IMG/VR virus record: IMGVR_UViG_3300036800_000065
Coordinates: 1-29,223 of that record
Origin: a virus
DNA length: 29,223 nucleotides
Reading direction: 5' to 3' (one strand)
Shown: piece by piece, positions 2,564 to 29,107 of the stretch
How the letters are laid out: each line of letters starts with the position of its first letter
How positions within the stretch are numbered: the stretch's first letter is position 1
Notes under the pieces: generated by a model
What the model was told of the DNA's origin: nothing
What the model saw: only the letters and a program-made list of their open reading frames with translations
The model's database searches: none
Translations under genes and position numbers: made by a program

Positions 2564-3100
2564 TCAGCGCTTCGTCGCTACCCCGATCAGGCAGTACGGA
2601 GCAACCTCGTCGCGTTCAATCACACCCTCAAAGCCGGCCGCCGTCAACGTCTTGGCGAGCGTCTCGCCGGTCCAGCCGGTCCTGTGGCCCATCAGGGGAT
2701 TGTCGTCCCACCGGGCGTTGCCATACAGGAAGTCCAACGTTCGGACCGACCCGGCTGCGCTCTGATGAAGCACGTCGGTCAACCGTCCCTCCAGGATCTC
2801 TGAGGCGAGCGCGGCCAGGTCGGGGACGATCACGAACAGCTCACCGCGTGGCCGAAGCACGCGCTGACATTCGCTGAGCACCTGCCGCGCGTCATCTTCG
2901 GTGAAGTGCTCCAGAACGCCACCGCAGTAGACCGCGTCAGCGTAGTCATCGCCAAACGCGAACTCCATGTCACGCAGATCAGCCACAATGTCGGGGTCAA
3001 CGTAAGGATCGGAATCGACCCGCACTTCGTGCCATCCGTCCCAGCGTCCCGGTGGCAGCGGAGCACTGCCACACCCCAGGTTCAGAACTACGCTCACCAT
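2564..3100 (-). CDS. Class I SAM-dependent methyltransferase
   Basis: The 178-aa product begins MVSVVLNLGCG; the ATG overlaps the upstream glycosyltransferase stop as TAATG, which fixes the start better than the longer frame back to 3244. Motif I (NLGCGSAPLPPG) binds SAM, VRVDSDP supplies the acidic residue after strand 2, and VYCGGVLEHF followed by RVLRPRGELFVIVPDL are the usual post-motif strands of methyltransferase-11/23 type enzymes. The C-terminal part (TGETLAKTLTAAGF) is also typical. The acceptor is unknown; sitting right after a GT-A glycosyltransferase and near a second methyltransferase, a sugar O- or N-methyl transfer is the natural inference. The length is short but complete for this fold. 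Confidence 0.83.
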   Translation of the reverse strand: MVSVVLNLGCGSAPLPPGRWDGWHEVRVDSDPYVDPDIVADLRDMEFAFGDDYADAVYCGGVLEHFTEDDARQVLSECQRVLRPRGELFVIVPDLAALASEILEGRLTDVLHQSAAGSVRTLDFLYGNARWDDNPLMGHRTGWTGETLAKTLTAAGFEGVIERDEVAPYCLIGVATKR

Positions 3101-3972
3101 TAGCCCGGAGGAAAGATCTGTCCGTCCGGAGAAATGTGACCGCACATTATCGACGTGTCCACCAGAAATGGCCAGCGCTTCCGCGCATACTTGCCCCACC
3201 CGGACTTCTTCAAGTAGCCACCGTCGATGATCTTCGAGCACCACTCCAGGTCGCTGGTGCCGGTCGCGGTGTTGACGTCACCGGTCGGGCTGACCCAGGC
3301 TCGTGTCGGGGTTTGGAACACGTCGCGTGTCGTCTGGCCGGCCACCGTGTACTCAGTCGCGTCTTCCCACATCGCTCTCAGTAGCGCGCCGTGGACCAAA
3401 ATGCAGCCAGTCGCGACCCCGTCACACCAGACTGGCTGACCCATCTTCCAGTCGGTGTATGACCCATTGCCTCGGCCTCTGTAGATGAGCGGCTCTGACG
3501 GAACACCCTTAGTGAAGTACAGACCACTTACTACTGGGGGGCCTTCCTTCATGTACTTACTCAGCTTGAGATACAGGTCCGGGGGCGGCAATGTGTCATC
3601 CTCGATCAGGAGCATGAACTCGAAGTCGCGGTTGATGACCTCTCGCACGATGAGATTCTGCGCATCCGCGACGGTGAAACGGATCGGAATGAACTCCGGG
3701 AGCATCTGAGTCATCGACACTGTCGACCAGTTCGGCGGGGTCATCAACCCACGCATCGCGGAATACCACTCGATCCGAACCGTCCCGCGTGTTGGGGTGC
3801 CGACCAGGATCCGGTTGGTGTAGCCAGGATCGTTTGAGTCCAGCATCACGATCTTGGTCTCCCGGATCGGCGTCCCCTCGGCCCCACCGTCGCTCTGCCC
3901 GGAATTGGTTCGTCTGACGTGTCCTCCGTTTGCCAACGTTTCGTCGGCAAGCTCCTCCAGCGTCTTCGTCAC
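3100..3972 (-). CDS. GT-A type glycosyltransferase (GT2-like)
   Basis: This 290-aa protein starts at a GTG (3970-3972) that overlaps the preceding stop as GTGA and has a strong AGGAGGA four bases upstream. After a ~40-residue polar leader, KIVMLDSNDPGYTNRILVGTP leads into a GT-A fold: VADAQNLIVREV, then FEFMLLIEDDTLPPPDL with EDD at residues 124-126, the probable metal/nucleotide-sugar site. VVSGLYFTKG and VWCDGVATGCILVHGALL follow, as in GT2-family enzymes that patrol for acceptor. The C-terminal half has SDLEWCSKIIDGGY. Donor and acceptor cannot be read from sequence. It lies between two methyltransferases in an overlapping block, which suggests a glycan that is both built and methylated. 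Confidence 0.78.
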   Translation of the reverse strand: MTKTLEELADETLANGGHVRRTNSGQSDGGAEGTPIRETKIVMLDSNDPGYTNRILVGTPTRGTVRIEWYSAMRGLMTPPNWSTVSMTQMLPEFIPIRFTVADAQNLIVREVINRDFEFMLLIEDDTLPPPDLYLKLSKYMKEGPPVVSGLYFTKGVPSEPLIYRGRGNGSYTDWKMGQPVWCDGVATGCILVHGALLRAMWEDATEYTVAGQTTRDVFQTPTRAWVSPTGDVNTATGTSDLEWCSKIIDGGYLKKSGWGKYARKRWPFLVDTSIMCGHISPDGQIFPPG

Positions 3973-4562
3973 GACTTCCTCCTGTACTTGATCTCCCCGT
4001 TGTGATGCCAGTGCGGCTGGTCTAACCGCTTGCGCAACACGACTTCCATCATGCCTTCACCATGGTAAAGGTTCTGTTCAATGCGGAAGGGTGCCGGTTC
4101 GTAAAACCCGTAGAATCGCGATTCGTCCTCGGGGGCGAAATATCTCCAGGTGTCCTGGTTGCAGGGGTTTGCGTGGGTAGGGTCCTGGGCGTAGAAACGG
4201 TTAGTGCCATAGGGACATGCAATGGCGAGCTGCCCTTCGGGCTTGAGAATCCGCCAGCATTCATTCATCCAGTCGATGAAGTGTCCGTTGACCGGGTTGA
4301 CGTGCTCGACCACGTGGGAGGCGATGATGGTGAGCACCGACTCGTCATCGAGCGGCCAGGGAAACTCGTCCCAGGAGTGGACGATATCCACCTCCGCGAA
4401 CGCCTGGTGGTCCATGCCCACAGCGCCCGGCTGCGGATTTCTGCCACAGCCAACGTCGAGAATGATCCCGCGCTTGCTGGCGAACTTCTTCGCCAGCGCT
4501 GCGCTACGACCATTAGCAGACTGGGGCTTGGCGGCAACCTTGCGCTTTGCTGTTGCGCTCAT
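3969..4562 (-). CDS. Class I SAM-dependent methyltransferase
   Basis: The 197-aa protein has a basic, Ala-rich N-terminal leader (residues 1-30) followed by IILDVGCGRNPQPGAVGMD, the SAM-binding motif I with its acidic partner. TIIASHVVEHVNPVNGHFIDW and CWRILKPEGQLAIACP are the usual strand 4 and strand 5 regions of methyltransferase-11/23 proteins. It also carries ANPCNQDTWRYFAPE, unlike its two cousins in the window, so it is a distinct family member rather than a recent duplicate. The ATG at 4562 overlaps the upstream stop as ATGA, and its own stop overlaps the next start as GTGA, so it is translationally coupled within the cluster 4870-2564. The substrate is unknown. Confidence 0.83.
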   Translation of the reverse strand: MSATAKRKVAAKPQSANGRSAALAKKFASKRGIILDVGCGRNPQPGAVGMDHQAFAEVDIVHSWDEFPWPLDDESVLTIIASHVVEHVNPVNGHFIDWMNECWRILKPEGQLAIACPYGTNRFYAQDPTHANPCNQDTWRYFAPEDESRFYGFYEPAPFRIEQNLYHGEGMMEVVLRKRLDQPHWHHNGEIKYRRKS

Positions 4563-4897: not shown

Positions 4898-7800
4898 TTA
4901 TGGTCCGAACGGGGCGTTCGTGAGCGTTGCCGCAACCGACTCGTAGGTCGGCCCGGCTGCTGGTGCCCCATGGAAGAGGGGCGAGGTGTATGACGCCCCG
5001 CTGTTGTTCCGGTAGTTGTTGATCTGAATCCAGTTGTTCCCGTTGTCGGTGCCCGGTTCAAGCGTTGGGTAATGCACCGTTGTGGTCCCGCAGCCCGTCA
5101 GCGTGCTTGTGTTCGAGCACGAGAAGGTCATGGGCTGACCATCCTTCCACAACTGAACCTCGCCCGTGGTTGCCGACGTGGAGAACACTACGTGCTCGAT
5201 GAAATCGTGCCACTTGCCGTCAGCCGCTGGTACGGAGTCTCGCCACAGCGTTGTCCCGCCGCCGGACTGGCCGCTGACGTCGCCACCGTAGCCGAACACC
5301 ACGCACCCCCCGTTGTTCTGGAATATGTCCAGGCCGATGGTAGGCGAGCCTTGCGAAACCCCGGACTGAGGGTTCCCGAACTGCTCATTGAAGTTCACGA
5401 GCGTACTATTGCTCGACCCGATGGAGCAAGGGAAAGTAGTAGGTACGAGAACAGGGATGCTGATGTATTGGTCTGACCCCGCCGCGATGAAGTGTGGGCT
5501 ATCCCAATCCATCCGCTGCTCGCACTGATACGCGCACGTACTACTCCCAACCGTCATGTTCAGGACCGTCGCGCCGCTGCCGTTCGGATCAGTTTGGCAC
5601 TGTAGGGTGCCGTTTCCGATAGCACTCGCACCCAGGTCCGGGCTGCGGTAGGGGTATTCCGTCGCGCTATTGCAGGTCGGCGTGAACGCGCCGCTCCAGT
5701 TCAGGCTGGGAGCCGCGGGGGTCAAGCCAAAGCTGGTGGCCATCGAGTTCGCGCTGGCGGCATTCCCCAGGAGCGGGAGTCCGAGCAGCTCCTCCGTGGT
5801 GCGCAGCAGCGAATAGTGGGTGTAGGTCGTCGCGCTCTTGACAGCGCTCGTGTTCCGGGAGATCACGGCCGTGTAGACGTGGTTGTCGGGTGGTGTGGTC
5901 GCGCCCTGCGTGTCATTCACGTTCGATTCGTCGAAGGTGACGAAGATCGCCATACTCCCCGACTGGTACTGCGGGGTTGCCATGATCGCCGGTATCTCGT
6001 TCGATAGCCACGTATCCCCTGTGCTCGGGCTGCTGTCGTGGTCGTCGTTGGTCTTGTTGGGCGTGATGAACACGAACTTCGGGTTGAACGCCGTAGACGA
6101 GAACGGGGCGGATGGCAACGTCTGCTCAAAACCCGATCCCAGGTCGGTGTAGTACTCGACCGGGTTGTGGTTTGAGTCGGTGTTGCCGGACTCCACATAG
6201 TTGACGGCGTTCCCGGAGCCGAGCTGGTGGAAGATGTTGTCCTGGGACTGGGGGCACGAGCTCGGGGAGCCGTCGCCGCCGAGGCAACTGTTCCACGGGA
6301 CGCCGCTGGTCGCGGAGATGTAGTTGTCGGCGGAGAAGTGCCCGATCCCGTAGTAGTTGGTCGCCAGCCCGTAGGTGTTAGCGAGCTGCGTCTCATAGGA
6401 CTGCGGGCCGTAGATGTTGCTGTAGTCGTTGTTCTCCATGGTGATCCAGACGACGTGCTGAATCGCTCCTGTCGAGCAGGCGGCCGTCGTGCCGGTCGTG
6501 GTAGCGGGCGTGCTGGTGTTCCCGGCCGCGTCGTTGGCTTCGATGCCAAGCTGATAGGTCGTGCCGCACGACAGGCCGGTGAACGTCAGGGTAAGACCGG
6601 AGGCAAACCCGAATCCGGTGGTGTTGAGGAACGCGTTGTAGCCCGTGATCGCGTCGGTGCCGCCGTTGTCGTTCGCAGCAGCCCATCCGAGCGTCAGGGT
6701 GGTCTGCGTGGAGCTCGTGACGCTCAAGCCAGTCGGGACACTAGGCGGGGTCGTGTCCGTACCGCCTGCCCCAACCCGAAGGTTGTGGGCGAACAGCCAC
6801 GCGGTTAGATGGTCTGGATAGTCGATGTCTGCGCAGTCGACATATGTGCCCCCGACTGAGCAGTTCCCGGCCGAACCGGCAAACCAGGCGTGCCCGGCGT
6901 TAGGCACGAGAATGTTCTCCACCCGCGTGTGCCCGTTGGCATCGTTCCACTGCTCTTGGTTTCCGCCGTTCCCGCCAGGCAGGGTCGAAGTGCTCGTAGG
7001 ATTCTGCAAGAACGGTTCCGAGGACACGGCACCATTCCCGGGTTGACAACCGTAGGTCATAGTCCAGCCGCTCGGATTGGCCGTATTGGTAGCTGAAGAC
7101 ATGCCGTAGGTCTGGAGCATGCCTGCCACATTGGTTGGCGTGTTCATCTCCGCCACTGTTCCGTCGCAGGACCCGACCACGGCCGAGAAGATCTGTGTGC
7201 TGAGCGCGGCTGTTTGGTCCGTGCCGGTCCCGTTGTTGGCGGCATAGTGCTTGCAGTTTGCCGACATCGTGGCCGGGTCGCCGAACGGTGGCAAGGCACC
7301 CTTCGTGCCGTCGGTGCCGGCCTCTCCTAGCGTGACGCCAGAGTTAGATCCACCACCAGCGAACACGTTCGGAGCCAGGCAGATCAGAGGCATTACTTCA
7401 GCGGCACCGGCGGACAGCCCTGATACGTAAATCTGGTTCGGGTCGATGGAATACTGGGTGTTCGCTTCAATGTTCTGGATGAGCGCAACCATCCAGCCCG
7501 CGTCCCACGGAGCGCCGTTCCCAGTCCCGGCTCCCAATATCTGGTTGGTGCCCCACCACGTCCAGCAGCCCAGCGAGTGGCCAGACCCGGCGGTTGGGGC
7601 CACCACCATCATCCCGTACTTCTCCGCCGCGTTCTCCCAGCCAAAGCCGCCATTAGCAACGTTCGTACTCGACTGAGTACAGCCGTGAAGCGACAGCATC
7701 AACGCCCGCTTCCCATTGACCACTGCCGGAGCGGGATTCTTCGGCCAGTACAGCTGGAAAGTCTGGGTTTCGCCGGCAGCGGTAAACGAGGACGATGACG

Positions 7801-10800
7801 TCCACGTCCCGGGGCCAGGCGTCAGCGTCGTAGACGTCCCCGTTGGCGTTGCGGATGCCGGGGGCGAAGACTGCCCGCTCGTATTCACCGGGGTCTGGTT
7901 ATCGAACGCCGCGACGGTGTAGAAGTACTGGGTGCCGTTGGTCACGGAGGTATCCGTGAAGCTCGTCCCGGTCGATTGCGCAACCTGCGTGAACGGCCCG
8001 CTGGCGCTCGTGGACCGGTAGATGTTGTAGCCGGCCACGGACACGCCACCGCCCGAGCTATCGGTAGAAGCGTTCCAGCTCAGCGACACCTGTGCGTTGC
8101 CGGCCGTAGCGGCAAGCCCGGTCGGAACGGTCGGCGGGGATACCGTGCCGCTCGATTGAGTCCGGAGATTGTTGGCAAACAACCAGCCGGTCAGCCAATC
8201 GGGGTAGTCGGGGCCGGTGCAGTCGGTGTAGGTGCCGCCGTTGCTGCAGTTGCCGCCCGAACCCATAAACCAACGGTGGTCAGCCCCCGCCACCGTGATC
8301 TCTGCGACCCGGACATGCCCGTTGGCGTCCTTCCAGTCCTGGCCTAACCCTGGTGTGCCGCCGCTCGTAGTCGCGGGAAGCGTGAACGTGTCTGATGGGT
8401 TTTGCGTGTACCCCGGCGATCCGGTTTGGCAGCCAGTACCAGCACCCCAACTGTTCGTCGTATTGACGTCAGCACCCAGCCCAAAGACGCTCAACATGCC
8501 CGCCGTAAGAAGGGGGGTGTTGATCGCAGGCACTACTGAGTCGCACGTTCCCGCGATCGTAGAGAAGATCTGCGTCTTGAACGCCGCTGTCTGGTTGGTG
8601 CTCGTTCCGTTGTTCGCCGCGTAGTGGTTGCAGTTAGTCGTCACCGTCGAGGAGTTGGCCGGTGGTGAGGTGCCGAAACCCAGCGGCTGTCCCAGAGAGA
8701 CGCCAGAGTTGGCTCCGCCACCCGCAATCAGGTTCGGAGCCAGGCACATCAGCAGCGGAACCTCAGCACCACCGGCCGATATTCCGGCGACATACACCTG
8801 ATTGGGATCGATGTTCCACTGAGGATTAGCCAGCGCGTTCTTGATCAACTGCACCAGCCAACCGTTGTCCCACGTAAAGCCTGCCTCTGACCCACTGTTT
8901 AGTGTCTGGTCGGTGCCCCACCACGTGTAGCAACTGGGGTGCGCCTGATTCTTGTTGACAGAAGTGTTCGTACCCGTCTCATGCGCCCCGCTCGAAGTAT
9001 GGATACTCGGCGCGAGAACCATCATCCCGTACTTCTCCGCCGCCGGCTCCCAGTTCTCGCCACCGTTGATGATGTCTCCTGAGGACGTGTAGGACCCGAC
9101 CACGGTGCCCGCCGGGTTCTCTGCGTCCTGCGTGCAACCATGCAACGCGACCATCAGCGCCCGCTTGCCGTTGACCACCTGCGGGCTCGAGTTCTTGGGC
9201 CAATACGTCCAGTAGGACATCGTCTCGCCGCCGGCGTTGAGACTGGTCCCGCTATCCCACGTTCCCGGCCCCGGCGTCATCGTCGACACGGCCGGCGTCG
9301 CCGATACCGACCCAGACAGTGGGCTGACGTTCGGAGGCGTCTGGTTGTCGAACGCCGCTACCTCGTAAAAGTATTGCGTCCCGTTCGTCGGGGTCGTGTC
9401 CGTGAAATTGGTGCCCGTCGTTTGCGTTATCTGGTTGAACGGCCCGCCGCTGCTCGTCGCTCTAAAGACGCGGTAGCCGGCGACCGCCGCACCATGGCCG
9501 GCCGTATCCGTCGAAGCGTTCCACGTCAAAGCCACCTGCGCATTACCCGCCGTGGCGGTAAGCCCACCCGGGACAGACGGTGGCTGCGTAATCCTGGGCT
9601 GCGGGTCGGCCGCAGATGCAGCACTAGACGCCCCACTTGCGTTAGACGCCGTGACTATCGAGATCACTCGCCCACCGTTAGCAACATCGCTGGCCTGCAA
9701 CTGGTAGGTCGGAGAAGTCGCCCCGCTGACGGTCAGGCCACGCCGGACACCACCCCGCCGAGCGTTGCGTCGGGCGTGCCCGACGCTGCCGCTGCTCGGG
9801 TTCCCGACCCACGCCCAGTTGATATAGACGTGGCCGCTGCTCCCGGTACCGCCGTTAGCCAGCGGCTGAAGCTGGAGCTGCCAGCGCTCCGGCTGGGACC
9901 ACACCTGGTTCGTGCTCGTCCCGATCAGGTTGCCGTCGACGAAGTAGGACCGGAAGCCAGGACCCCAGGTCTGCGTGTAGACGTGCCACTGGGTCAGGTC
10001 GATCGTCGGCGTCGAGTAGAAGTCCTGGCTGCTGGTACCGAAGTGCGCGAAGGCGCTCATCGACGTGGCGTTGAAGTTCCCCTCGGGGAAGTCTGACTCG
10101 GCCGCCGGCCCGTTGGAATCAGCCGACGGCCATAGCAGGACGGCCTGTTTGAAGTCATTGAGGTTGGAGCCCGCATCCGGCGCGACCTTCTCGCACATCG
10201 ACCACGCCCCATAGGTCTGATAGCGATTGCCGCCAGGGAGGGGGGACATGTTTGCGGCGACGTCATTGTGCAGGTTGAAGTCCATGACGCCGTCGTGGAC
10301 GCTCATGACCGTGGACGGCTGGTAGGCCGTGGTAACGCCGTTAGCCCCCCACCCGTCGGGATAGCTAGTCCAGCCCATCCCCTGATCGCCGGTATACACC
10401 GGAGCCGTGTCGTTGCCGTTGGTCCAGGCTGTTCCGCTTGCCTGAGCCTTGGTAAACGTATCCCAGCCCTCGCGGGCATAGGAGGTAGACCCGAACGTCG
10501 CCAACGTCCCAGGGACCGTCTGCCCGCAGGACCCCAAGCTGTTGGAAGCCCCCGTGATCGGATGGCAGTTGATCCCGTTCGCATCACACGCCTCCCACGC
10601 ATAGTTGAACGAGGTCGGCGAATTGGACCACGTCCCGTTCGACGTCGAAATCGTGTCCCCGGCCGAATACGCTCCCGCACTCGTCGTATCCGTCTGCACC
10701 GGAATCGACACGTTGACGGGCGTCCCGGTCGGCTGCGTAGACCCGCACACCGAAAGGCTCTGGGAGTTCTGCGTAGACGTCCCGAACGAGGCCGACGGCC

Positions 10801-11674
10801 CGGACGTGTACGTGTTCGGGTTGAAATCCGTGCTGCCCAGCGTCCCATTCGAGTAGGCGTAGTTGACCGCAGCCGTGCCGCCCGTGATCGGCCCCACCCA
10901 CACCGGAGCGCCGGACGTGACCGCAATCGACGTCGGGAACGTGAACGTCACGTAGCCGCCGCTGATCGTGTTCGGCTCAGAGATCTCGTCTGAGACGCCC
11001 AGCAGCGCCCCAGGCCCACCACTAGACCCCGTGGTGTCATAGACCGCCATCCGGAAGTTCTCGGTGCCCGCCGTGCTGCTCCCCGTCAGATACTCCGATA
11101 CGGTCGTCAACTGCCCCGACGAGTTCGGCGTGATCTGCACCGCCCGCTTCTGATCAACCGGAAACGGCGTGGTACTGACCGACGTTCCCTGCGTACTGTT
11201 GCCGAACGTGCAGCCCCGGAAGGCCTGAGATTGCACGACCCCGGTTGGTGTCGAAGGCTGCGAAGCCGTCAACCCGCCGCTGAACGTCGCCGTCACCACG
11301 ACCACGATCGCGAAGCCCGCGTCCGAGCTCTGCACCGTGTACGCCGCCCCCGTCGCGTTCACGATCGGCTGGCAGCTCCGTCCCGCCGCATTGCAATCAA
11401 ACCACTGATAGGCATAGGAGAGCGGGGTTTGCGACCAGTTTCCCTGGCTGGCATCGAACAGCTCGCCCACCACGGGTCCGGCCACTGAGCCGAACCGCAC
11501 CCCGGCGTAGGACACGAACTGCTGCCTGCCGATCGGCGAAACCCCGTGGCGACCGACCACCGGCCCGACGGTGCTATGAGGGGAGACGTAGTGCGACGTC
11601 AGACCAGCAACGACGAGACCCGCGATCGCCAGCATGATCGCGACCCAATGCACAACGTGAGCCGGCAGCTTCAT
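4898..11674 (-). CDS. Giant multi-enzyme surface-polymer degrading protein (GH16-like, two CE1/PHB-depolymerase-like, phosphoesterase, lyase-like)
   Basis: The protein is 2258 aa. The start is ATG 11674 behind GAGGGG. Residues 8-27 are a hydrophobic signal or membrane anchor. Domains in order: Ig-like (~45-150, YAYQWFDCNAAGRSC); beta domain (~150-315); first half of a second Ig-like domain (~315-395); GH16-like domain (~398-621) with catalytic-type ESDFPEG near 526; second half of that Ig-like domain (~640-690); FN3 (~696-795); esterase 1 (~800-1170) with LHGCTQ, nucleophile GISAGG near 963, GTCDSVVP and GADHRWF; FN3 (~1181-1275); esterase 2 (~1286-1630) with LHGCTQ, GLSAGA near 1418, GSCDGTVAE and NAGHAWF; FN3 (~1643-1731); phosphoesterase-family domain (~1740-1981: VVWITMENNDYSN, FVTFDESN, DNHVYTAVIS); C-terminal lyase/concanavalin-like domain (~1995-2258). 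Both esterase copies keep Ser, Asp and His. It probably cleaves several surface polymers. A hydrophobic N-terminus is odd for a virion protein, so a secreted product is possible. Confidence 0.8.
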   Translation of the reverse strand: MKLPAHVVHWVAIMLAIAGLVVAGLTSHYVSPHSTVGPVVGRHGVSPIGRQQFVSYAGVRFGSVAGPVVGELFDASQGNWSQTPLSYAYQWFDCNAAGRSCQPIVNATGAAYTVQSSDAGFAIVVVVTATFSGGLTASQPSTPTGVVQSQAFRGCTFGNSTQGTSVSTTPFPVDQKRAVQITPNSSGQLTTVSEYLTGSSTAGTENFRMAVYDTTGSSGGPGALLGVSDEISEPNTISGGYVTFTFPTSIAVTSGAPVWVGPITGGTAAVNYAYSNGTLGSTDFNPNTYTSGPSASFGTSTQNSQSLSVCGSTQPTGTPVNVSIPVQTDTTSAGAYSAGDTISTSNGTWSNSPTSFNYAWEACDANGINCHPITGASNSLGSCGQTVPGTLATFGSTSYAREGWDTFTKAQASGTAWTNGNDTAPVYTGDQGMGWTSYPDGWGANGVTTAYQPSTVMSVHDGVMDFNLHNDVAANMSPLPGGNRYQTYGAWSMCEKVAPDAGSNLNDFKQAVLLWPSADSNGPAAESDFPEGNFNATSMSAFAHFGTSSQDFYSTPTIDLTQWHVYTQTWGPGFRSYFVDGNLIGTSTNQVWSQPERWQLQLQPLANGGTGSSGHVYINWAWVGNPSSGSVGHARRNARRGGVRRGLTVSGATSPTYQLQASDVANGGRVISIVTASNASGASSAASAADPQPRITQPPSVPGGLTATAGNAQVALTWNASTDTAGHGAAVAGYRVFRATSSGGPFNQITQTTGTNFTDTTPTNGTQYFYEVAAFDNQTPPNVSPLSGSVSATPAVSTMTPGPGTWDSGTSLNAGGETMSYWTYWPKNSSPQVVNGKRALMVALHGCTQDAENPAGTVVGSYTSSGDIINGGENWEPAAEKYGMMVLAPSIHTSSGAHETGTNTSVNKNQAHPSCYTWWGTDQTLNSGSEAGFTWDNGWLVQLIKNALANPQWNIDPNQVYVAGISAGGAEVPLLMCLAPNLIAGGGANSGVSLGQPLGFGTSPPANSSTVTTNCNHYAANNGTSTNQTAAFKTQIFSTIAGTCDSVVPAINTPLLTAGMLSVFGLGADVNTTNSWGAGTGCQTGSPGYTQNPSDTFTLPATTSGGTPGLGQDWKDANGHVRVAEITVAGADHRWFMGSGGNCSNGGTYTDCTGPDYPDWLTGWLFANNLRTQSSGTVSPPTVPTGLAATAGNAQVSLSWNASTDSSGGGVSVAGYNIYRSTSASGPFTQVAQSTGTSFTDTSVTNGTQYFYTVAAFDNQTPVNTSGQSSPPASATPTGTSTTLTPGPGTWTSSSSFTAAGETQTFQLYWPKNPAPAVVNGKRALMLSLHGCTQSSTNVANGGFGWENAAEKYGMMVVAPTAGSGHSLGCWTWWGTNQILGAGTGNGAPWDAGWMVALIQNIEANTQYSIDPNQIYVSGLSAGAAEVMPLICLAPNVFAGGGSNSGVTLGEAGTDGTKGALPPFGDPATMSANCKHYAANNGTGTDQTAALSTQIFSAVVGSCDGTVAEMNTPTNVAGMLQTYGMSSATNTANPSGWTMTYGCQPGNGAVSSEPFLQNPTSTSTLPGGNGGNQEQWNDANGHTRVENILVPNAGHAWFAGSAGNCSVGGTYVDCADIDYPDHLTAWLFAHNLRVGAGGTDTTPPSVPTGLSVTSSTQTTLTLGWAAANDNGGTDAITGYNAFLNTTGFGFASGLTLTFTGLSCGTTYQLGIEANDAAGNTSTPATTTGTTAACSTGAIQHVVWITMENNDYSNIYGPQSYETQLANTYGLATNYYGIGHFSADNYISATSGVPWNSCLGGDGSPSSCPQSQDNIFHQLGSGNAVNYVESGNTDSNHNPVEYYTDLGSGFEQTLPSAPFSSTAFNPKFVFITPNKTNDDHDSSPSTGDTWLSNEIPAIMATPQYQSGSMAIFVTFDESNVNDTQGATTPPDNHVYTAVISRNTSAVKSATTYTHYSLLRTTEELLGLPLLGNAASANSMATSFGLTPAAPSLNWSGAFTPTCNSATEYPYRSPDLGASAIGNGTLQCQTDPNGSGATVLNMTVGSSTCAYQCEQRMDWDSPHFIAAGSDQYISIPVLVPTTFPCSIGSSNSTLVNFNEQFGNPQSGVSQGSPTIGLDIFQNNGGCVVFGYGGDVSGQSGGGTTLWRDSVPAADGKWHDFIEHVVFSTSATTGEVQLWKDGQPMTFSCSNTSTLTGCGTTTVHYPTLEPGTDNGNNWIQINNYRNNSGASYTSPLFHGAPAAGPTYESVAATLTNAPFGP

Positions 11675-11757: not shown

Positions 11758-12492
11758 CTACGGTGTGCCGTCAGGATCCAGCCCGTTATCGAGCAAGAGT
11801 CCACGCAGACGGAAGTTCTCCGCCCGCAAAACTTCGGTTTCGGCGCGCAACGAGTCAGCGTCCCGGCCGTCTGCGAAGTGATCGGCGATGTGCTGCCCAG
11901 CCTGAAGAACACGGAGGTTCTCCGGCCGGTTGTCGTGCCTGATCCGGTTGATGTGATGCACGACCTCGCCCGGCTCCAATAGCCGGCCGAGCTTTTCCTC
12001 CGCCACCAGGATGTGCTCAAACACCCAGTCCCTGCTGGTAGCGCGTGGATGGTCGGGTGAGTGGACCGTGACATAACCAGCTGACGTGGTGTGCCGCCCG
12101 CCCTTCCAGTTGCCGGCGTTCTCTCCAGAGCGCCCATCCGGGAACTTCTTGCGAAGGCCGGCCTTGATGGCCTCGGATCTAGTGCCGGTGCTCAATCCGT
12201 ACTTCTTCAGGTAATGACTGACTGCGCCGGGCGTAGTGTTGAGGTCTCGCGCGATATCCGTGACCGTCTGGTAATCCGCGCGCGCGGCTAGCGCGACCCT
12301 GTCTTCCAGTTCCGCGGCCGCCGGTCGACGTCCGCGGATGCGCTCGATGCCGTGCTTTCTCAGCGCCCGGTAAACCGCGTGCTTGTTGCAGCCAACCTCG
12401 GCTGCTATCTCGCCCGCTGTCTTGCGTTCCGTGACGTAGCGCTGGTAAAGCCAGTCGCGGTCATTGAGTTGTGGGTAGATGGATTTGATCAT
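11758..12492 (-). CDS. Free-standing HNH homing endonuclease with helix-turn-helix repeats
   Basis: This is a 244-aa protein. Residues ~20-50 (TAGEIAAEVGCNKHAVYRAL) and ~75-100 (TVTDIARDLNTTPGAVSHYL) are two helix-turn-helix segments for site recognition. Residues ~128-205 form the HNH nuclease: NWKGGRH, FEHILVAEEKLGR, then VVHHINRIRHDNRPENLRVL with HH at 179-180, Asn at 188 and 192 and a final His at 201. This is the HNH_3-type arrangement common in phage homing endonucleases. A short helical tail (~210-235) may be a coiled coil. The start is ATG 12492; upstream only a weak GGGTGG is seen. It interrupts the run of structural genes and has its own spacing of 43 bases upstream and 83 downstream, consistent with an invading element. 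Its target site is unknown. Confidence 0.85.
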   Translation of the reverse strand: MIKSIYPQLNDRDWLYQRYVTERKTAGEIAAEVGCNKHAVYRALRKHGIERIRGRRPAAAELEDRVALAARADYQTVTDIARDLNTTPGAVSHYLKKYGLSTGTRSEAIKAGLRKKFPDGRSGENAGNWKGGRHTTSAGYVTVHSPDHPRATSRDWVFEHILVAEEKLGRLLEPGEVVHHINRIRHDNRPENLRVLQAGQHIADHFADGRDADSLRAETEVLRAENFRLRGLLLDNGLDPDGTP

Positions 12493-14093: not shown

Positions 14094-14633
14094 TCACTGC
14101 TCCTCTGGTCGGATCAGGGCGATGACATCCGTGTGCCAGATCGGTTCGCCCATGAGCTTGCTCGTGCTGGTGATGAAATCCAGGTCGCCTTCATAGCGCG
14201 CAGACCAGGTCCCCAGCTTCTCGTACACGCGCGGCACGACGACGATCTGGGTCGAGACATTTCCTGGGGCGATCTCCGGCTTGACCCAGATCTCGTACGG
14301 CCCGCTTCCGTCACCATCGTCGAGCGACGGGAAGATGTAGTGGCGCGGGGGGTAGCGCATCTTGAACATGTGCATCCGCGACGGATCCTGGGCTACGCCT
14401 GCACGTACCGCGTCGAACGCTCCCGGCAGATAAAGGTCGTCATCGTCCAGGAACATGAGATGCGAGCCGCGGGCGCGTAGCATCATCCGGTTCCGCGCTT
14501 CGTTCCCATAGGGTGCGTCGTCGTTGCAGTCGACAATCAGCTCGTCGCCGGGGCTCAGCTGGCTGCCGATGGATTGCAGGGTGCGAGCCAGGGTCGGCCG
14601 GCCAGAGGATGCGACGAGCACCGACAGTCTCAT
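14094..14633 (-). CDS. GT-A glycosyltransferase, family 2-like (short)
   Basis: The 179-aa product starts MRLSVLVASSGRPTLARTLQSI, the standard GT2 first strand and helix, followed by GDELIVDCNDD, NEARNRMMLRARG and HLMFLDDDDLYLPGAFDAV. The DDDD at residues 63-66 corresponds to the metal-binding DxD. GPYEIWVKPEI and a C-terminal SARYEGDLDFI complete a short but plausible catalytic domain; GT2 enzymes are usually 220-350 aa, so this one is near the minimum. The ATG overlaps the upstream methyltransferase stop (ATGA-like overlap of four bases). With 14630-16855 it forms a four-gene glycan cluster. Donor and acceptor are unknown. Confidence 0.78.
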   Translation of the reverse strand: MRLSVLVASSGRPTLARTLQSIGSQLSPGDELIVDCNDDAPYGNEARNRMMLRARGSHLMFLDDDDLYLPGAFDAVRAGVAQDPSRMHMFKMRYPPRHYIFPSLDDGDGSGPYEIWVKPEIAPGNVSTQIVVVPRVYEKLGTWSARYEGDLDFITSTSKLMGEPIWHTDVIALIRPEEQ

Positions 14634-15121
14634 CCCTCACCCCCCCGTTTAGGCGTCGCTGTAAGAGCGAACTGCCAAGGATCGCGGCCCACTACCGGCC
14701 AGTCGTCTGATACGTCTTCGATATCCAGCAAGTGCGCGTCGAACAGTTCCTCTACGTACCGGAGCGTCAGCGCCCCGGTGGGAACCCAAAGGTGCTCATC
14801 CCCCGGCCACCGCTTTCCCCCATGTCGGACCCCGTCTTCCAGTAGCGGTTCGTAGCGCATCGTCAGGTCAATATCGGGACCAACGACGACGAGCTCGCCG
14901 GTGGGAGCTAGGACGCGGTGGATCTCGCTGAGCGCTCTAGGCAGGTCGGTGGTGGCGACGTGTTCGAGCACGTGACCGCAATACACCTGCTGTGCGGACC
15001 CGGTGTCGAAGGGCATGTCAAGGACGGAGCAGATGGCATCCGGCCGTGGCCCATCTTGGTGAAGGTCTGTGTTGGTCCACCCCGGGGCGTAGTGCTGCCC
15101 GCACCCGATGTTCAGTCTCAT
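14630..15121 (-). CDS. Class I SAM-dependent methyltransferase
   Basis: The 163-aa product begins MRLNIGCGQHYAPGWTNTD, placing the SAM-binding motif I at the very N-terminus as in the enzyme at 2564-3100. VYCGHVLEHVATTDLPRALSEI and RVLAPTGELVVVGPDI follow, typical of methyltransferase-11-type proteins. The C-terminal third has MRYEPLLEDGVRHGG and DEHLWVPTGALTLRYVEELFD, which probably closes the acceptor pocket. GAGG stands close to the ATG. It lies seven bases after the GT4 stop and overlaps the following GT2 gene by four bases. The gene order, glycosyltransferase then methyltransferase then glycosyltransferase, points to a methylated sugar. The substrate itself is not readable. Confidence 0.83.
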   Translation of the reverse strand: MRLNIGCGQHYAPGWTNTDLHQDGPRPDAICSVLDMPFDTGSAQQVYCGHVLEHVATTDLPRALSEIHRVLAPTGELVVVGPDIDLTMRYEPLLEDGVRHGGKRWPGDEHLWVPTGALTLRYVEELFDAHLLDIEDVSDDWPVVGRDPWQFALTATPKRGGEG

Positions 15122-15128
15122 ACCTCAA

Positions 15129-16271
15129 TCATGCGAGCGTCAACGCGTAGCGCAGCACTTGGTCCCAGTGCTGCCAGTTGTTCGCGATCGAGTACTGCTC
15201 GGCGATCGTGCGGTTGCGTTCACTCTCGGCAGCGTGAACGTCGGGGTCCTGGAGCTCGTTGAGATGCCGCCACCAGTCGCCCGGTTTCTTCACCAGCCGG
15301 CGAGCCTGAAGCTCTCGGTAGGCGGGATGGTCAGACGCGATGAACGGGATCCCCCGCGCACACGCCTCGAGCGATTTAACCCACGACTTGGCTAAGCCAA
15401 AGGACGAGTTCTCGATCGGGCACAGCGCGGTCCGCAATGGACGCCACAGCGACGGGTAGGAGCCAATCTCGACCGCGGGGTTCACGGTCACGTTGCCGTA
15501 GCCAAGGATGGCTGATGCTGACTTGTCGGCATTCATGTGCCCGCCGTGGTAGAACGTTTCGTTGTGCTGGGCCAGCCAGGGGATGATCGGCCGCAACAGC
15601 TGCAGGTCGGCTCCCCGCCACCGATTCGCGCCAACCCAACCGATATACCGTCCCGGCTTACGGGGCTTCCAGTCATCCAGGTTGATGTAGTTGCGGACCG
15701 TTTCCACCGGGGGTCCCCAGCGAGCCAGAGCATTCGCCAGCCACGGGGTCGCGACGGTGATCAGGGTCGACGCCTTGATCGTGTCGCGATAGTGGTCGCG
15801 GTTGAAGCTGGCGTGAGCGACGGGATCGGTGCCCCGGTTGGCGACATGGCCCTTGGGGATCGCCCAGTAGTAGTCGTCGACATCGTTGATGATCACCTGC
15901 CCCGTCGACCGGGCCTTGCGGATCCAGCCGGCGGTGTCGTCAGACATCCACTGGCGCCAGATCACGATCTCGCGGTCTGACCACCACGTCCCGTGCTGAT
16001 CACGGATCGACATCGTCCCATCCGCTTTGAACCCCACCGCTCGAGCCAGCATCACGTCATGGCCCTGCTTCTTCAGCTCGGCTGCGGGGACGATCAGCCG
16101 CCAGTAGTCAGACCCGCCGATCTGGATGTCCTGAGCCTGGTTGGCCCACGCGTGGCTGAAGATCGCGATGCGTAGCCCCCCGGCGCGCCCCGGGGAGGAG
16201 AGGGAGGCAGAGCGCAACCGGGGAGCTATCTGTTCCGGTGCCGCGGACGACCCCGAAGTCTTCATGCCCAT
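15129..16271 (-). CDS. GT-B glycosyltransferase, GT4-like
   Basis: The 380-aa protein has a ~30-residue low-complexity leader, then LRIAIFSHAWANQAQDIQIG, GGSDYWRLIVPAAELKKQGH and DVMLARAVGF, the N-terminal Rossmann half of a GT-B enzyme. The middle includes STGQVIINDVDDYYW and TLITVATPWLANAL. The C-terminal half has GRYIGWVGANRWRGADLQLL, NSSFGLAKSWVKSLEACARG and IPFIASDHPAY, where the Lys and the Glu of S-x-E-A-x-A-x-G resemble the nucleotide-binding positions of GT4 enzymes. Two in-frame ATGs (16271 and 16265) are possible; both overlap the upstream gene's stop, the second as ATGA. Such GT4 proteins occur in actinophage genomes near structural genes. Donor and acceptor are unknown. Confidence 0.78.
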   Translation of the reverse strand: MGMKTSGSSAAPEQIAPRLRSASLSSPGRAGGLRIAIFSHAWANQAQDIQIGGSDYWRLIVPAAELKKQGHDVMLARAVGFKADGTMSIRDQHGTWWSDREIVIWRQWMSDDTAGWIRKARSTGQVIINDVDDYYWAIPKGHVANRGTDPVAHASFNRDHYRDTIKASTLITVATPWLANALARWGPPVETVRNYINLDDWKPRKPGRYIGWVGANRWRGADLQLLRPIIPWLAQHNETFYHGGHMNADKSASAILGYGNVTVNPAVEIGSYPSLWRPLRTALCPIENSSFGLAKSWVKSLEACARGIPFIASDHPAYRELQARRLVKKPGDWWRHLNELQDPDVHAAESERNRTIAEQYSIANNWQHWDQVLRYALTLA

Positions 16272-17621: not shown

Positions 17622-19624
17622 TCAGAAGTTGCCGCCGCCGGCGCCGCTGAACGTCTGCGGCTGACCGAACGACGCGCCGAAGCCGAGCGTGATCGACACG
17701 CCGTACCGCGCCAGGAACGCCACGTATCCGTACACCTGGAAGCGGAGCTCCAGTGTGCCGCTGAGTACCTCAGCCAGGACACGGGTCCTGAGGTCGCCCT
17801 CGAACAGCCACAGGTCGTCCCAGATCGCACCAATGACGATGTCCTTGGTGCCACCACCGGCCACACCAGTCCCGTCGTCCGTGATCGGCACATTGCCGTC
17901 GATGTAGACGTTGGGGCCGTACGGCAGTCGGCCGGCGAAACCCTCGTAGGGAGCCGGGTCGATCTCGACCTCCTGCGCGTTCATGGGACCGAACGGAGAA
18001 CCGTCGATGCCCAGTGGGCGACCGAAGGCATCCAGGCCCGTCACAGACCAGAAGTGACGGCGCGGGTGCATGAGCAGGTTGAAGTCCGTCAGGTTGAACC
18101 TGTTGTAGGACGTCTTCGACGTTAGAGCGCCGAGGAACTGGTAGAACTCCGACTGGGCTGGAACATACGGCGACGATGCCGCGTTCTGTCCCATGGTGGC
18201 AACCGAAGCCGTCACCGTGGTGGCACCCCAGTTAGCCGCCGGGTAGATACCAACCACCTGGCCGCCCGAGAGCGGGGCACCAACGCCCGACCCCTGAATC
18301 ACCTGCAGATCGAGCTGCTTGTTGTAGTCAGCAATGAGGTCGGTCATCAGGACCCGGTCGAGGATCTGCCCCGGTGACTGCTCGATGAGCTGGATCGGAA
18401 CGTCTTCGTTTCCGGCGATCGTCTTGACATTCGCCTGCTGGAACGTGTCACTGAAGTCCCTGCTGGTCACAGGAGCGGCGTCAGCGGTCTGGATACCCGT
18501 CAGTGTCGGCGTGAGCAGACGCGGGATGTTGATGGAGTCCGTGCCCTCAGGCAACGGCATCTGGCGGCACAATCCAGCTGCCACCCTGCCCGGACGCAAT
18601 GCCGGGATATATTCGTCCACAAGCCACAAGGGCGGTATGGCATACGAGTTGTTACTCCATGTAGTAATTCGCCCTACATGGGGCCAGGTCATTTCTGCCT
18701 GACTCTGCATCCTTGCCGTAGATGCAGACCCGACTGTAACTTCTTCTGGCAGCAATTCCGAAATACACAGTTCCGGGTGCTTATGCCAGAGCCTCACGTT
18801 CAGTCTGTACGGACTCTCCCTGTGCGGGTTGCCTCGGTATTCCCCTTTGAGTACGGCCGGGGTTCACCGATACGGTGAGGTTTTCTAGCGTAAAGTCGCC
18901 TCTACGCGGCGGCCAGCGTCAACAAACCGCCCTGTCCAACGATCCGGCTGGGAGCACGGGTTTCCTGCAGGTCGTACTGAAGCCGCATCGACTCCAGCTG
19001 CGCCTGCCGTGTGAACGGCGACTCCGACAGCTCGCCCCTGCCGAGACGATGGCGGGACCGGAGCTCTGACTCCGCGTTCTCGACCTGACGCTCAGCGTCG
19101 CGCTTGCGTGACGCCCAGCGGTCGGGCATGACGTCGCCCATCATCTTCGCGTGGCGTTCCAGCCGGTCCCGGTAGCCCTCCAGCTTGGCGTTCGGGACTG
19201 ACCGCACTTCCTGATTCTGGTGAGCGGCCAGGTCCAGGAAGTAGCTGTGCTGTCCCTGGTTGTCCTGGCGGTACACCATCGGTTCGCGCTGGCTTTCGAG
19301 CTTCTCGAACGAGACGCCTCGTGAAGAGCGCTGAGCGACTGCCAGGGAGTCCGCGAGGGTCTCCTCCTGCTCAACACGGGTCTTCAGGGTACGCAGCTCG
19401 CCGAGCCTGCTGTCCAGGTCGCGGTTGAACTTCGTTTCCGCCTCGGCGAACGTTGCGCGTTCCTCGTCGGTCGGGTGCTTGGTTTCGTCCGTGTCGGCGG
19501 ACCGGGTGTCGAACGTTTCGCGTTCGCTTCGGCGTGCCTCCAGCATGGGCTGAATTTCAGCCACGAGGGTGTCGTGCCGGGAGCGAAGCTCCGCGAGGAC
19601 GTCCTGCTTGTCCTTGGGGTCCAT
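17622..19624 (-). CDS. HK97-fold major capsid protein 2, interrupted by a group I intron (exons 19624-18926 and 18644-17622)
   Basis: Exon 1 (19624-18926) encodes 233 aa from ATG 19624 with AAGGAGG four bases upstream; it is a charged, helical delta/scaffold-like domain (coiled-coil-rich, ~1-200). Exon 2 (18644-17622) encodes 340 aa of HK97 fold: YAIPPLWLVDEYIPALRPG, then TIAGNEDVPIQLIEQSPG, the G-loop and the C-terminal strand region ending GQPQTFSGAGGGNF. Without splicing exon 1 reads seven codons into the intron and stops, and exon 2 is left without a start of its own. Splicing joins GGCGGT to TATGCC and gives GQGGYAIPPLWLVDEY, the normal capsid junction, in frame (573 aa). It assembles the head. 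It shares the TIAGNxDVPxQxxEQSP block with the other capsid protein but is otherwise diverged. Confidence 0.88.
18645..18925 (-). ncRNA. Group I self-splicing intron (281 nt, no ORF)
   Basis: Intron numbering runs from 18925 (1) to 18645 (281). P1: exon GGCGGU pairs with GCCGCC (13-18), giving the required U.G at the 5' splice site. P2: 19-23/34-38. P3: CCTCAC 46-51 with GTGAGG 129-134. P4: TCGGT 56-60 with ACCGA 88-92. P5: CCCC 64-67 with GGGG 81-84. P6: 98-100/106-108. P7: GACTG 121-125 with CAGTC 190-194. P8: TCTGGCA 136-142 with TGCCAGA 175-181. P9: TCTGCATC 198-205 with GATGCAGA 215-222. P9.1: 225-228/238-241. P9.2: CCATGTAG 245-252 with CTACATGG 262-269. The last base is G. The P3/P7/P8 pseudoknot order and the Q-like AATACCGAGGC and R-like GTACAGACTGAAC segments are those of group I catalytic cores. 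It should splice with guanosine and needs no protein encoded inside it. Confidence 0.9.
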
Positions 19625-20358: not shown

Positions 20359-20621
20359 GGCGCTTAGGCATCTTGCTGGCATCCACCGTCGCTATCGCGG
20401 CCTGTGGCGGTAGCGCCACCACGTCGTACCCCGCCAACGTGCAGACCAACTTTCTGAACGCCTGCGAAATGAAAGCGGGGGTGGCCGCTTGCGATTGCAC
20501 GCTCAGTCACATCGAGCAGCATGTGTCCCTCGGCGATTACCAGATTGGCGAGCAAAATATCGCGAGTGGCGTGCCTCAGTGGCTCGACACTGCCGTGCGC
20601 AGCTGCGCTAGCACCCACTAG
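20355..20621 (+). CDS. Small lipoprotein (probable moron, candidate envelope/superinfection-exclusion protein)
   Basis: The 88-aa product begins MRRLGILLASTVAIAACGGS, with a clear lipobox (IAAC) and lipidated Cys17. The mature part has four more Cys (37, 46, 48, 84), including FLNACEMK and AACDCTLSHIEQHVSLGDY; a 'C-x8-C-x-C-x4-IE-H' pattern is shared, as I recall, with small exported actinobacterial proteins. The gene starts in the last codons of its upstream neighbour (ATGA), so the two are a translational unit. Its stop overlaps the stop of the convergent capsid gene 1 (CTAG, 20618-20621), leaving no terminator between. Phage lipoproteins often block superinfection or change host adhesion; that role is inferred. 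Confidence 0.75.
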   Translation: MRRLGILLASTVAIAACGGSATTSYPANVQTNFLNACEMKAGVAACDCTLSHIEQHVSLGDYQIGEQNIASGVPQWLDTAVRSCASTH

Positions 20622-22015
20622 AACCCGGACTGCACCACCATGCCGGTACCGGTCAGGTATCCCACCGATGCCGGCTGACGCAGGAGAGCTGCCACGTATC
20701 TGCGCATCTGGATTCGGACCATCAGCGACCCCGAAATCGCTTCGGTCATGATCCCCACGCCGGCACTCGGGTCCCGGGAGCCGGTGTTGCGCGCCAGGTT
20801 CTCCACCCCCATCTTGCGGTCTGACTCCAAGATAAGCCAATCCGACGGCCGGCAGGCCACCACAATGTCCTGATTGGTGTTGACCGTCGTGGGGATAGCG
20901 TCGTTCTGCCAGGCCGGATAGGCCAACAGGTCAAACGCGCCGGGTCCTGACTGGTTTGATAACGCGATCGGGAACTCCACATATCCCGAAGTGATCCAGG
21001 CACCCCGCGAGGTGGTCATCATCCAGATCTCGGGCTTGACCTTGCGGTTGTTGCCGATCGCCGCGATGACCTGCGCTACTGGGCCGCCCTGCCCACTCGT
21101 CTGGATCATCTTCGCCACCGTCGGCGTAGCGTCGGTGTAGGCGACGATGTTGCCCGCCGGGATGCTCGTGTTGTTCAAGATCCCCAGCAACTGGTTGTTC
21201 CCGGACCCTTGTGGGGTTGCTGCACCGGTCCCGGTAAACAGCTGCTGCTCAAGCTTGTAGCCGTAGCGCGACTCCATGTTCGTAAACACCGCCCAGTCCA
21301 GGTGCGCGCCCTGCGGGGACTGTTCGAGCATCTGAAGCGGAACGTCGGCGTTACCGGCAATCGTGGTCACGGCCGAACTGACCGCTGCACCAAGCAGGTC
21401 CGTCGATGTCGTAGCCCCGCTGACCGGTGTGACACCAACGTCAGCGCCCGCGGTCCACCGGGGCAGGTTGACCGACTGCGCACCGATCGGCAGGTCAAAG
21501 CAGGGAGCCATGCTGGACAGCACCCGCTCGGGTGTGGGGACCGTGGCAAACCACTCCACGATCCACAGTGGGGGAGCACCATAGCCGCCGGCGCCGTTTG
21601 TCCAGGAGACTGCGCGCTGCTCAAGCTCGTAGCTGACTTCGTGGCTGAAGATCTGCCGGCGCCGGTCACGGATCGCCTTCATCTCCTGCTCGTGGCGCAT
21701 CAGCCGTGCCCCGGCAGACACATAATCCCCGGACATCCGCTCATACGCCACCAGGTCAGCGATATAGCTGTAGTCATCACTCAGCGCGACGGCTCGTAGA
21801 CCGTTGTGGCCACGGCGGTCGGGGACTAGCCGGGCTTCGTAGGTCAGCGGCTCGCGGCCGATGGTGATCTGCGGCGAACGTTGCTCCCTGTGCTTAGTGG
21901 CCAGCCTTTCGGCCTCGGCTTCTCGAAGCATCCTGGACTGATCTTCAAGCAGTTCGGCTACACGCTCGTTGGAGTGAATCAGTCGCTCTACCTGGTCGGG
22001 AGCTATGGTGTCCAT
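20618..22015 (-). CDS. HK97-fold major capsid protein 1
   Basis: The 465-aa product starts at ATG 22015 with GGGAGG seven bases upstream. Residues 1-~140 are a helical, charged delta-type region (SNERVAELLEDQSRMLREAE; RLMRHEQEMKAIRDRRRQIF). The HK97 core follows: GGYGAPPLWIVEWFATVPTP (about 142-160), FDLPIGAQSVNLPRW, TIAGNADVPLQMLEQSPQG, LEQQLFTGTG, and at the end DIVVACRPSDWLILES, GSLMVRIQMRRYVAALLRQP. It lies directly after the prohead protease, the usual place of the main capsid gene. Its GGCGGC-TATGG junction (21589-21578) corresponds to the intron site of capsid gene 2 but is uninterrupted. Its relation to the second capsid protein (mixed shell, minor vertex form, or replacement) is not decidable here. 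Confidence 0.87.
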   Translation of the reverse strand: MDTIAPDQVERLIHSNERVAELLEDQSRMLREAEAERLATKHREQRSPQITIGREPLTYEARLVPDRRGHNGLRAVALSDDYSYIADLVAYERMSGDYVSAGARLMRHEQEMKAIRDRRRQIFSHEVSYELEQRAVSWTNGAGGYGAPPLWIVEWFATVPTPERVLSSMAPCFDLPIGAQSVNLPRWTAGADVGVTPVSGATTSTDLLGAAVSSAVTTIAGNADVPLQMLEQSPQGAHLDWAVFTNMESRYGYKLEQQLFTGTGAATPQGSGNNQLLGILNNTSIPAGNIVAYTDATPTVAKMIQTSGQGGPVAQVIAAIGNNRKVKPEIWMMTTSRGAWITSGYVEFPIALSNQSGPGAFDLLAYPAWQNDAIPTTVNTNQDIVVACRPSDWLILESDRKMGVENLARNTGSRDPSAGVGIMTEAISGSLMVRIQMRRYVAALLRQPASVGYLTGTGMVVQSGF

Positions 22016-27729: not shown

Positions 27730-29070
27730 CTATTTCCAGGCCGGAACGAACACGGTTGAGCCGTCGCCGCTCATCATCTTCAGCCACGTGTACGGTGCTG
27801 TCGCTGTAACCGCAGGACAGTTTGCGCCGAGGGCTGCCGACCCGGCGCCGGTCGTGTTGTTTGAGACCTTGACCTGATGGTTGGCGGTGCCAAGCGCAAT
27901 GACGTCCTGCGTGGTCGTCGACGCCGACGTATTGAGGTGATCGCGTCCGATTGCCACGGCACCGGCCGCCCCAGCCAGACATGCAACCCCTAGGGCTACT
28001 GCATTGTTGCCACCGACTTGTGAGTTGTATCCAACCGCGACCGAGTTGGTAACAGCACCCAGAGCGCTTGAGTTAGGTCCAGTTTGCGAACCGACCATAG
28101 TGTTGCCAGTTCCGGTCGTGATCTGCTGCCCTCCGACGCCGCCGCCTTGATAACCAGCGACCTGGCCGAAAGCGGTATTGTTGTTGCCGGTGGCGCCGTG
28201 TAATGCGTAGTAGCCGATCGCGGTCGGGCCGCCTGAGGACAATGTGCCCTGGGCGACCATTGACGAGAGCGAGTTGTATCCAACCGCCGTCAGGCCAATT
28301 GAGCCCGCGCTGGTGCCAGCCGCGTTACCACCAACCGCGACACAGTACCCATCGGTTGTGGCGTTGAAAAAGGCGTTGAGGCCGACCGCGACATTGTCGT
28401 GGGCGGTCGTGTTGCTGTAGTGGGCCTGATAGCCGACCGCCACGTTATTAGAACCGGAAGCCTGCACGCTGGTGCCCGGGCCGCCATGGAGGGCGTCGCC
28501 CCCAATGGCTGTGTTCAAGCCGCCTGAAAGGTTGTTGTACATCGCGCTGGCGCCGAGGGCAACATTTGTGTTGCCGCTCGTAGCCTGCCAGTTGGTGTGG
28601 TTCCCAACACACGTGTTCTCGACCCCGGCGACCAGCATCGCGTTGAGCGCGTCGAGACCGATCGCGACGCTGTAGCTGCCGCCGGCCTGCGAGGCAAGCG
28701 CACCATGACCAATCGCGATGTTTTCGCTGCCGGTCGTTTCGGCTGCGATTGCGCCCTGCCCGATCGCGATGTTGGTCAGGCCGGTAGTCAGCGCGGCTAG
28801 CGTGCCCGGCCCGACGCCTAGATTCCCGCCGCTGTTGGCGGTGGCCGAACTACTCATGGGCGGACCAGAGATGAGGTCGCCGTTGACGTCAACCGCCAGC
28901 AGCGTACTCGGTGTCGCACCCTGGACAGCCGCCCCGACCCCCGTCAGCGCCATCCAATTCGCGGCGTTGAACGAGGTACCCGACGTGAAGTTGGTCAGTG
29001 CTGCGTAGAGGTTGCCGTTGTAAAAGACAACCTGGCCCGTAACGTATGCGGTGTTCGGCTGCCAAGCCAA
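27730..29070 (-). CDS. YadA-like repeat fibre protein (tail or head fibre / adhesin)
   Basis: The product is 446 aa from TTG 29070, chosen because GGGAGGA lies four bases upstream; the frame is open to the window edge but that part overlaps the preceding gene's end. The N-terminal ~45 residues (AWQPNTAYVTGQVVFYNGNL, YAALTNFTSG, AANWMALTG) resemble a carbohydrate-binding module of the CBM5/12 type. Then come many 14-30-residue repeats of the YadA-head kind: NIAIGQGAIAAETTG, NIAIGHGALAS, YSVAIGLDALNA, TNVALGASAMYN, NTAIGGDALHG, NSVAVGYNSQVG. The last ~70 residues form a cap region ending FVPAWK. Such repeats fold as trimeric beta-helices on virion fibres. It is located upstream of the portal gene, not after the tail genes. 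Confidence 0.75.
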   Translation of the reverse strand: MAWQPNTAYVTGQVVFYNGNLYAALTNFTSGTSFNAANWMALTGVGAAVQGATPSTLLAVDVNGDLISGPPMSSSATANSGGNLGVGPGTLAALTTGLTNIAIGQGAIAAETTGSENIAIGHGALASQAGGSYSVAIGLDALNAMLVAGVENTCVGNHTNWQATSGNTNVALGASAMYNNLSGGLNTAIGGDALHGGPGTSVQASGSNNVAVGYQAHYSNTTAHDNVAVGLNAFFNATTDGYCVAVGGNAAGTSAGSIGLTAVGYNSLSSMVAQGTLSSGGPTAIGYYALHGATGNNNTAFGQVAGYQGGGVGGQQITTGTGNTMVGSQTGPNSSALGAVTNSVAVGYNSQVGGNNAVALGVACLAGAAGAVAIGRDHLNTSASTTTQDVIALGTANHQVKVSNNTTGAGSAALGANCPAVTATAPYTWLKMMSGDGSTVFVPAWK

Positions 29071-29107
29071 TGAGTCCTCCCTGAGTTGAGAACGGCAGAG
29101 TTGATCT

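Follow-up and report, generated by a model that had tools for sequence, protein, structure and literature searches.

The window, which is the whole 29,223-base IMG/VR virus record analysed here, contains on its minus strand a single open reading frame at positions 4898-11674. This frame starts with ATG and encodes 2258 residues without an internal stop. It is the sole long frame across the interval and takes up 6777 of the 29,223 bases (23%), in agreement with the initial annotation, which had described a protein of this length filling almost a quarter of the window; the strand is added here. The next ORF on the same strand begins at most about 30 bases after the gene and is preceded by a Shine-Dalgarno sequence (GGAGGAG). 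No promoter-like site was found upstream of the gene, and neither an RNA family search nor a PADLOC defence search gave a match.

The encoded protein, hereafter the polyenzyme, carries five enzyme-type domains, in the order GH16, esterase 1, esterase 2, PF04185 phosphoesterase and PF14099 lyase-like domain. Its linkers are Ig-like, beta-sandwich-like and FN3 segments. The features of the locus are as follows:

4898-11674, minus: whole polyenzyme gene, 2258 aa (ORF; SD-like AGAGGGG before the ATG)
11585-11674, minus: hydrophobic N-terminus, aa 1-30, either a putative signal peptide or a putative signal anchor (sequence, hydropathy)
11225-11545, minus: Ig-like linker module, aa 44-150 (alignment with the split Ig module)
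10730-11215, minus: unclassified beta-sandwich-like segment, aa ~154-315 (assigned by eye)
10535-10720, minus: N-terminal half of the split Ig-like module, aa 319-380
9755-10534, minus: GH16 domain between the Ig halves, aa 381-640; ExDxxE at aa 526-531 (10082-10099)
9593-9757, minus: C-terminal half of the split Ig-like module, aa 640-694
9290-9586, minus: FN3 linker 1, aa 697-795 (profile, duplicate alignment)
8159-9289, minus: esterase 1 (PF10503/TIGR01840), aa 796-1172; triad S966-D1045-H1133
7835-8143, minus: FN3 linker 2, aa 1178-1280
6770-7834, minus: esterase 2 (PF10503/TIGR01840/NF050058), aa 1281-1635; triad S1421-D1504-H1595
6476-6757, minus: FN3 linker 3, aa 1640-1733
5720-6463, minus: PF04185 phosphoesterase, aa 1738-1985; conserved E1747, N1748, H1779, S1781, H1836, D1877, H1879, D1915, E1916, H1953
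4901-5677, minus: PF14099 polysaccharide-lyase-like domain, aa 2000-2258 (profile)
11758-12492, minus: HTH/HNH endonuclease gene directly upstream of the polyenzyme gene
17622-18797, minus: major capsid protein, from which the related phages and the slot discussed below were defined

The FN3 and Ig-like linkers and the hydrophobic N-terminus that had been proposed initially are all present. In a 19-residue stretch that starts at position 7, the N-terminal segment attains its maximum mean hydropathy of 2.4. It is signal- or anchor-like, and export by the Sec pathway is proposed on this basis. The content of 36 Cys was also considered as an indication of export. It does not discriminate and is no proof, since some spikes of the related phages are equally Cys-rich. 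Beyond the initial description, the FN3 and esterase unit was found to be duplicated in tandem, the GH16 domain was found to lie within a split Ig module, and the beta-sandwich-like segment at aa 154-315 was recognised; Pfam and NCBIfam profile scans gave no match for the latter.

Catalytic domains and their relatives

The five predicted domain types were recovered: the two esterases (PF10503/TIGR01840), the phosphoesterase and the lyase-like domain score above their profile cutoffs, and the GH16 domain is recognised by its motif, its relatives and a Foldseek search. AlphaFold models were built from seven rows per alignment and are partial. They are confident only in the GH16 core and in part of the phosphoesterase, and do not resolve the nested Ig module or the lyase region.

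The GH16 domain lies between two halves of one Ig-like module. Its Pfam score in the domain scan is 18.0 bits against a cutoff of 22; the three viral GH16 relatives that were scanned, with 32-34% identity to it, exceed the cutoff. The motif E526-S-D528-F-P-E531 is intact, and its E, D and E are invariant in both GH16 alignments (A5, A6). The top Foldseek matches of the model (mean pLDDT 48.8, confident only in the core) are GH16 enzymes, namely glucanases, with E ~3e-7; PL7 lyases share the fold. The identity to an actinobacterial ORF amounts to 43%. A tandem pair of GH16-type genes, the second judged by eye, was observed in one further viral contig (L228:2589-4456).

The two esterases match PF10503 with 31.9 and 54.5 bits (cutoff 23) and TIGR01840 with 120 and 160 bits (cutoff 107.85). 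Both possess the GxSxG motif and the Ser-Asp-His triad, which were aligned with plasmid-borne esterases of the PHB-depolymerase family. The copies of the duplicated FN3 and esterase unit share 54% identity in an alignment of 488 columns. For NF050058 (extracellular dPHA-SCL type 1, cutoff 150 bits) scores of 150.9 for esterase 2, 121.2 for esterase 1 and 253.5 for the whole protein were obtained. Esterase 2 shares 37% identity over its domain (46% over part of it) with a 582-aa ORF of Paucimonas lemoignei, and this match stops where the catalytic domain ends. No PHB- or substrate-binding domain was recognised after the catalytic domain in the profile scans of the polyenzyme. The esterases are therefore classed in the esterase family and not as PHB depolymerases.

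The PF04185 domain scores 51.6 bits (cutoff 23), only when the domain is scanned alone. All metal-ligand- and nucleophile-like residues that are invariant in five bacterial and six viral relatives have been kept (E1747, N1748, H1779, S1781, H1836, H1879, D1915, E1916 and H1953). We take these residues to occupy an AcpA-type site, as known for the family. The Foldseek matches of the phosphoesterase model fall in the alkaline phosphatase superfamily, with AcpA among them. The PF14099 domain likewise scores above its cutoff (43.7 against 29.9 bits) only when scanned alone, and the AlphaFold pLDDT is ~30-45 across this region.

In IMG/VR, the phosphoesterase alignment matched six viral contigs, and a signal-like hydrophobic start was seen by eye in all six proteins. 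Half of them are also fused to a glycanase. The GH16 domain of L223 is supported by an hhalign probability of 97.6% and by the presence of ExDxxE. An endolysin-type gene lies on the same contig, and a terminase also occurs on another of the six (L222). The fusions of a signal-like start, a glycanase and PF04185 are located at:

L223:6960-8792: GH16 fusion
L224:998-2854: GH99 fusion
L225:3151-4989: GH99 fusion

None of nine bacterial PF04185 controls contains a glycanase; in these, PF04185 is accompanied by linkers (TIG, Ig or FN3) or by no further Pfam domain. The comparison (six viral and nine bacterial proteins) is a small and non-random sample. On these sequences, proteins with a signal, a glycanase and PF04185 may represent a candidate class of phage exoenzymes.

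The scans of INPHARED (50,697 phage records) and IMG/VR make use of short peptide patterns that can miss relatives, and "none" should be read here as none found. A whole-protein search of IMG/VR gave no close relative. In INPHARED, no match was obtained for the phosphoesterase-lyase part and no relative was found for the esterases; for GH16 there was one match, a protein of Curtobacterium phage Kithara annotated as a minor tail protein. The broader esterase alignment (A2) matched 238 relatives in bacterial genomes and none in IMG/VR viruses, and the narrower esterase-only patterns (A1) matched neither genomes nor viruses. Neither the domain combination nor the twin PHB-depolymerase-like esterases were found in any other virus among those searched, and no report of a phage PHB depolymerase was found in the literature searched.

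Phage context and the late-operon slot

On both sides, and on the same strand, the polyenzyme gene is flanked by phage genes: a portal, a head protease, two capsid-type genes, the HNH endonuclease and unclassified PHROG families. Its codon usage correlates with that of the phage structural genes (r=0.964), with a GC3 of 0.80 compared to 0.72-0.83. A misjoined host fragment had been named at the outset as a finding that would overturn the interpretation. Because the phage late region continues on both sides and the codon usage matches, no misjoin is visible. Residence of the gene in the phage genome is thus supported, although not proven.

The modules themselves are likely of bacterial origin, since the esterases resemble bacterial exoenzymes in their family, and the phosphoesterase does so in both its family and the type of its linkers. 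Among cultured phages, mycobacteriophages come closest in the capsid protein, at 38-39% identity, and the style of the Ig modules and linkers, together with the domain relatives, points to actinobacteria. Soil-type actinobacteria would be the most likely candidate hosts. Two further observations were made in the late region. The gene at 20618-22015 and the major capsid gene are neighbours that both belong to the phrog_2263 capsid family, and this pair is kept in related contigs. Methyltransferase and glycosyltransferase-type genes occur on either side of the polyenzyme gene (2564-4562 and 14094-16271).

Related contigs were collected by means of the capsid protein, and six of the longer records were read. 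In six relatives, the slot downstream of the capsid genes is occupied by a large spike (1105, 771, 750, 765, 1038 or 784 aa). A beta-helix/pectate-lyase-like profile was found in one spike and a CBM5/12 in another, and the spikes are interlinked by a common N-terminal anchor/coil region. When this region was searched against the window, no match was found. In one relative, the slot is taken instead by an 881-aa protein (L009:8707-11352, G006), which is the closest analogue by position and N-terminal style; it begins with a hydrophobic stretch, and its content is of beta-helix type, with a weak match to GH49. No homologue of the polyenzyme was found in ten related phage records; several of these are partial, which makes this a weak negative.

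The window itself encodes a spike-like protein at 27730-29220, with CBM5/12 and YadA-head-type repeats; the slot spike of L149 gave a match to its CBM region. In that contig, a short integrase-like ORF (by eye) directly follows the spike (L149:16157-16741), and the slot may thus be a recombination site.

Possible roles of the polyenzyme

We lean towards a Sec-exported phage polyenzyme, secreted or membrane-tethered, which was assembled from actinobacterial-type exoenzyme modules and dismantles the extracellular glycopolymer around the infected cell. The polyenzyme would be produced along with the late genes and leave the cytoplasm via Sec, either as a secreted protein or tethered at the membrane. 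The GH16 domain would then cut a beta-glycan backbone, while the twin esterases would strip ester substituents or cleave a polyester. The PF04185 domain would take off phosphate, the lyase-like domain would bind or cleave a uronate-containing glycan, and the FN3 and Ig modules would serve as spacers. The capsule, wall or biofilm glycopolymer of the host could in this way be loosened, allowing the progeny to disperse. The exported polyenzyme is supported by the domains, the intact catalytic motifs of GH16, the esterases and the phosphoesterase, the phage context, the lack of a spike anchor and the recurrence of the signal, glycanase and PF04185 combination. Several points count against it: the N-terminus shows no clear cleavage site, the slot is otherwise occupied by virion spikes, GH16 falls short of its Pfam cutoff, and without a close whole-protein homologue in IMG/VR or the ten related records there is none to show purifying selection.

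A rather less probable explanation is a virion-associated enzymatic spike or fibre that digests the capsule at adsorption. In its favour, the large beta-helix or CBM spikes of the relatives sit just downstream of the capsid genes, and GH16 domains are also seen in the Kithara gene and, on other viral contigs, in genes of tail type. However, the polyenzyme lacks any match to the anchor/coil of those spikes, and its hydrophobic, export-like N-terminus is unusual for proteins that are built into virions in the cytoplasm. The initial annotation had favoured a secreted or anchored enzyme over an ordinary tail spike. The missing spike anchor and the signal-like N-terminus bear this out, with the qualification that the gene occupies the spike slot of its relatives and that an association with the virion may hold.

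It is unlikely that the polyenzyme is an auxiliary metabolic exoenzyme feeding the infected host from environmental polymers such as plant or fungal beta-glucan, PHB or organic phosphate. Its likeness to bacterial exoenzymes (the P. lemoignei and actinobacterial identities given above, and actinobacterial PF04185 proteins with TIG/FN3) and the in vitro activity of soil phage phosphatases (PMC10987575) would fit such a function, but the gene sits among the late structural genes instead of in an early or metabolic cassette, and whether a lytic infection lasts long enough to yield a gain is doubtful. That the gene is a host gene present by chance, a misassembly or recent cargo without function for the phage is very improbable: the host-type modular architecture, the absence from the ten related records and the adjoining HNH endonuclease gene are outweighed by the phage genes on both sides on one strand, the codon usage, the intact 6.8-kb frame with all tested catalytic motifs, and the next ORF with its Shine-Dalgarno sequence immediately after.

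Taken as a whole, the earlier interpretation is partly supported, and its predicted role on extracellular polymers is retained. If the five domains cooperate, the polyenzyme would be a viral counterpart of the bacterial multi-catalytic exoenzymes, and phages would be able to attack the extracellular matrix from within the infected cell by enzyme export, besides from the virion. Since the signal, glycanase and PF04185 combination recurs in viral contigs, the class can be put to the test, and phosphate-bearing glycopolymers are suggested as its common target. Only tentatively, a wider proposal can be made: fusions of a glycanase and a phosphoesterase may recur in soil-type actinobacterial phages and be exported in the course of infection to break down polymers of the host or of a biofilm. 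Among these fusions the polyenzyme would stand at the extreme. It would unite five activities, and its type-1 PHA-depolymerase-like esterases, which may attack polyester freed at lysis, would be the first known to be encoded by a virus.

Comparison with known systems

Domain types like those of the polyenzyme occur in bacteria. With the extracellular PHB depolymerases of type 1 (NF050058/TIGR01840/PF10503), such as that of P. lemoignei, it shares the alpha/beta-hydrolase domain, the central GxSxG, the S-D-H triad and the FN3 linkers. It differs by its two tandem copies, their fusion to GH16, PF04185 and PF14099, and the phage location. The ExDxxE motif and the ConA-like fold are common to GH16 beta-glucanases and laminarinases and to phage GH16 proteins (Kithara gp31, L228-L233), whereas the placement between Ig halves and inside a polyenzyme is distinct. 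The GH16 proteins of L229, L231-L233 and Kithara are of tail-region type in appearance and lack a signal segment.

The secreted actinobacterial PF04185 proteins (AcpA/phospholipase C group, with TIG/FN3/Ig linkers) have the metal and nucleophile residues and the linker types in common with the polyenzyme. In the latter, one loop is shorter and the domain is joined to a glycanase and esterases. The fusions in L223, L224 and L225 are likewise single phage-encoded proteins that bring together an export-type N-terminus with a glycanase and PF04185, but measure only 610-618 aa, contain neither esterases nor a lyase and are found in other viral contigs.

Late-region glycopolymer-degrading enzymes of Curtobacterium prophages have been reported (PMC9862828). 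In the accessible part of that source, these comprise phage-region esterases, glycosidases and phosphodiester glycosidases directed against wall or envelope glycopolymers, similar to the polyenzyme; unlike the latter, they are there mostly single-activity enzymes of 400-700 aa. Considering these enzymes and the soil phage phosphatases mentioned above, phage polymer-degrading enzymes are already known, and the novelty of the polyenzyme lies in its combination of domains and in its esterases.
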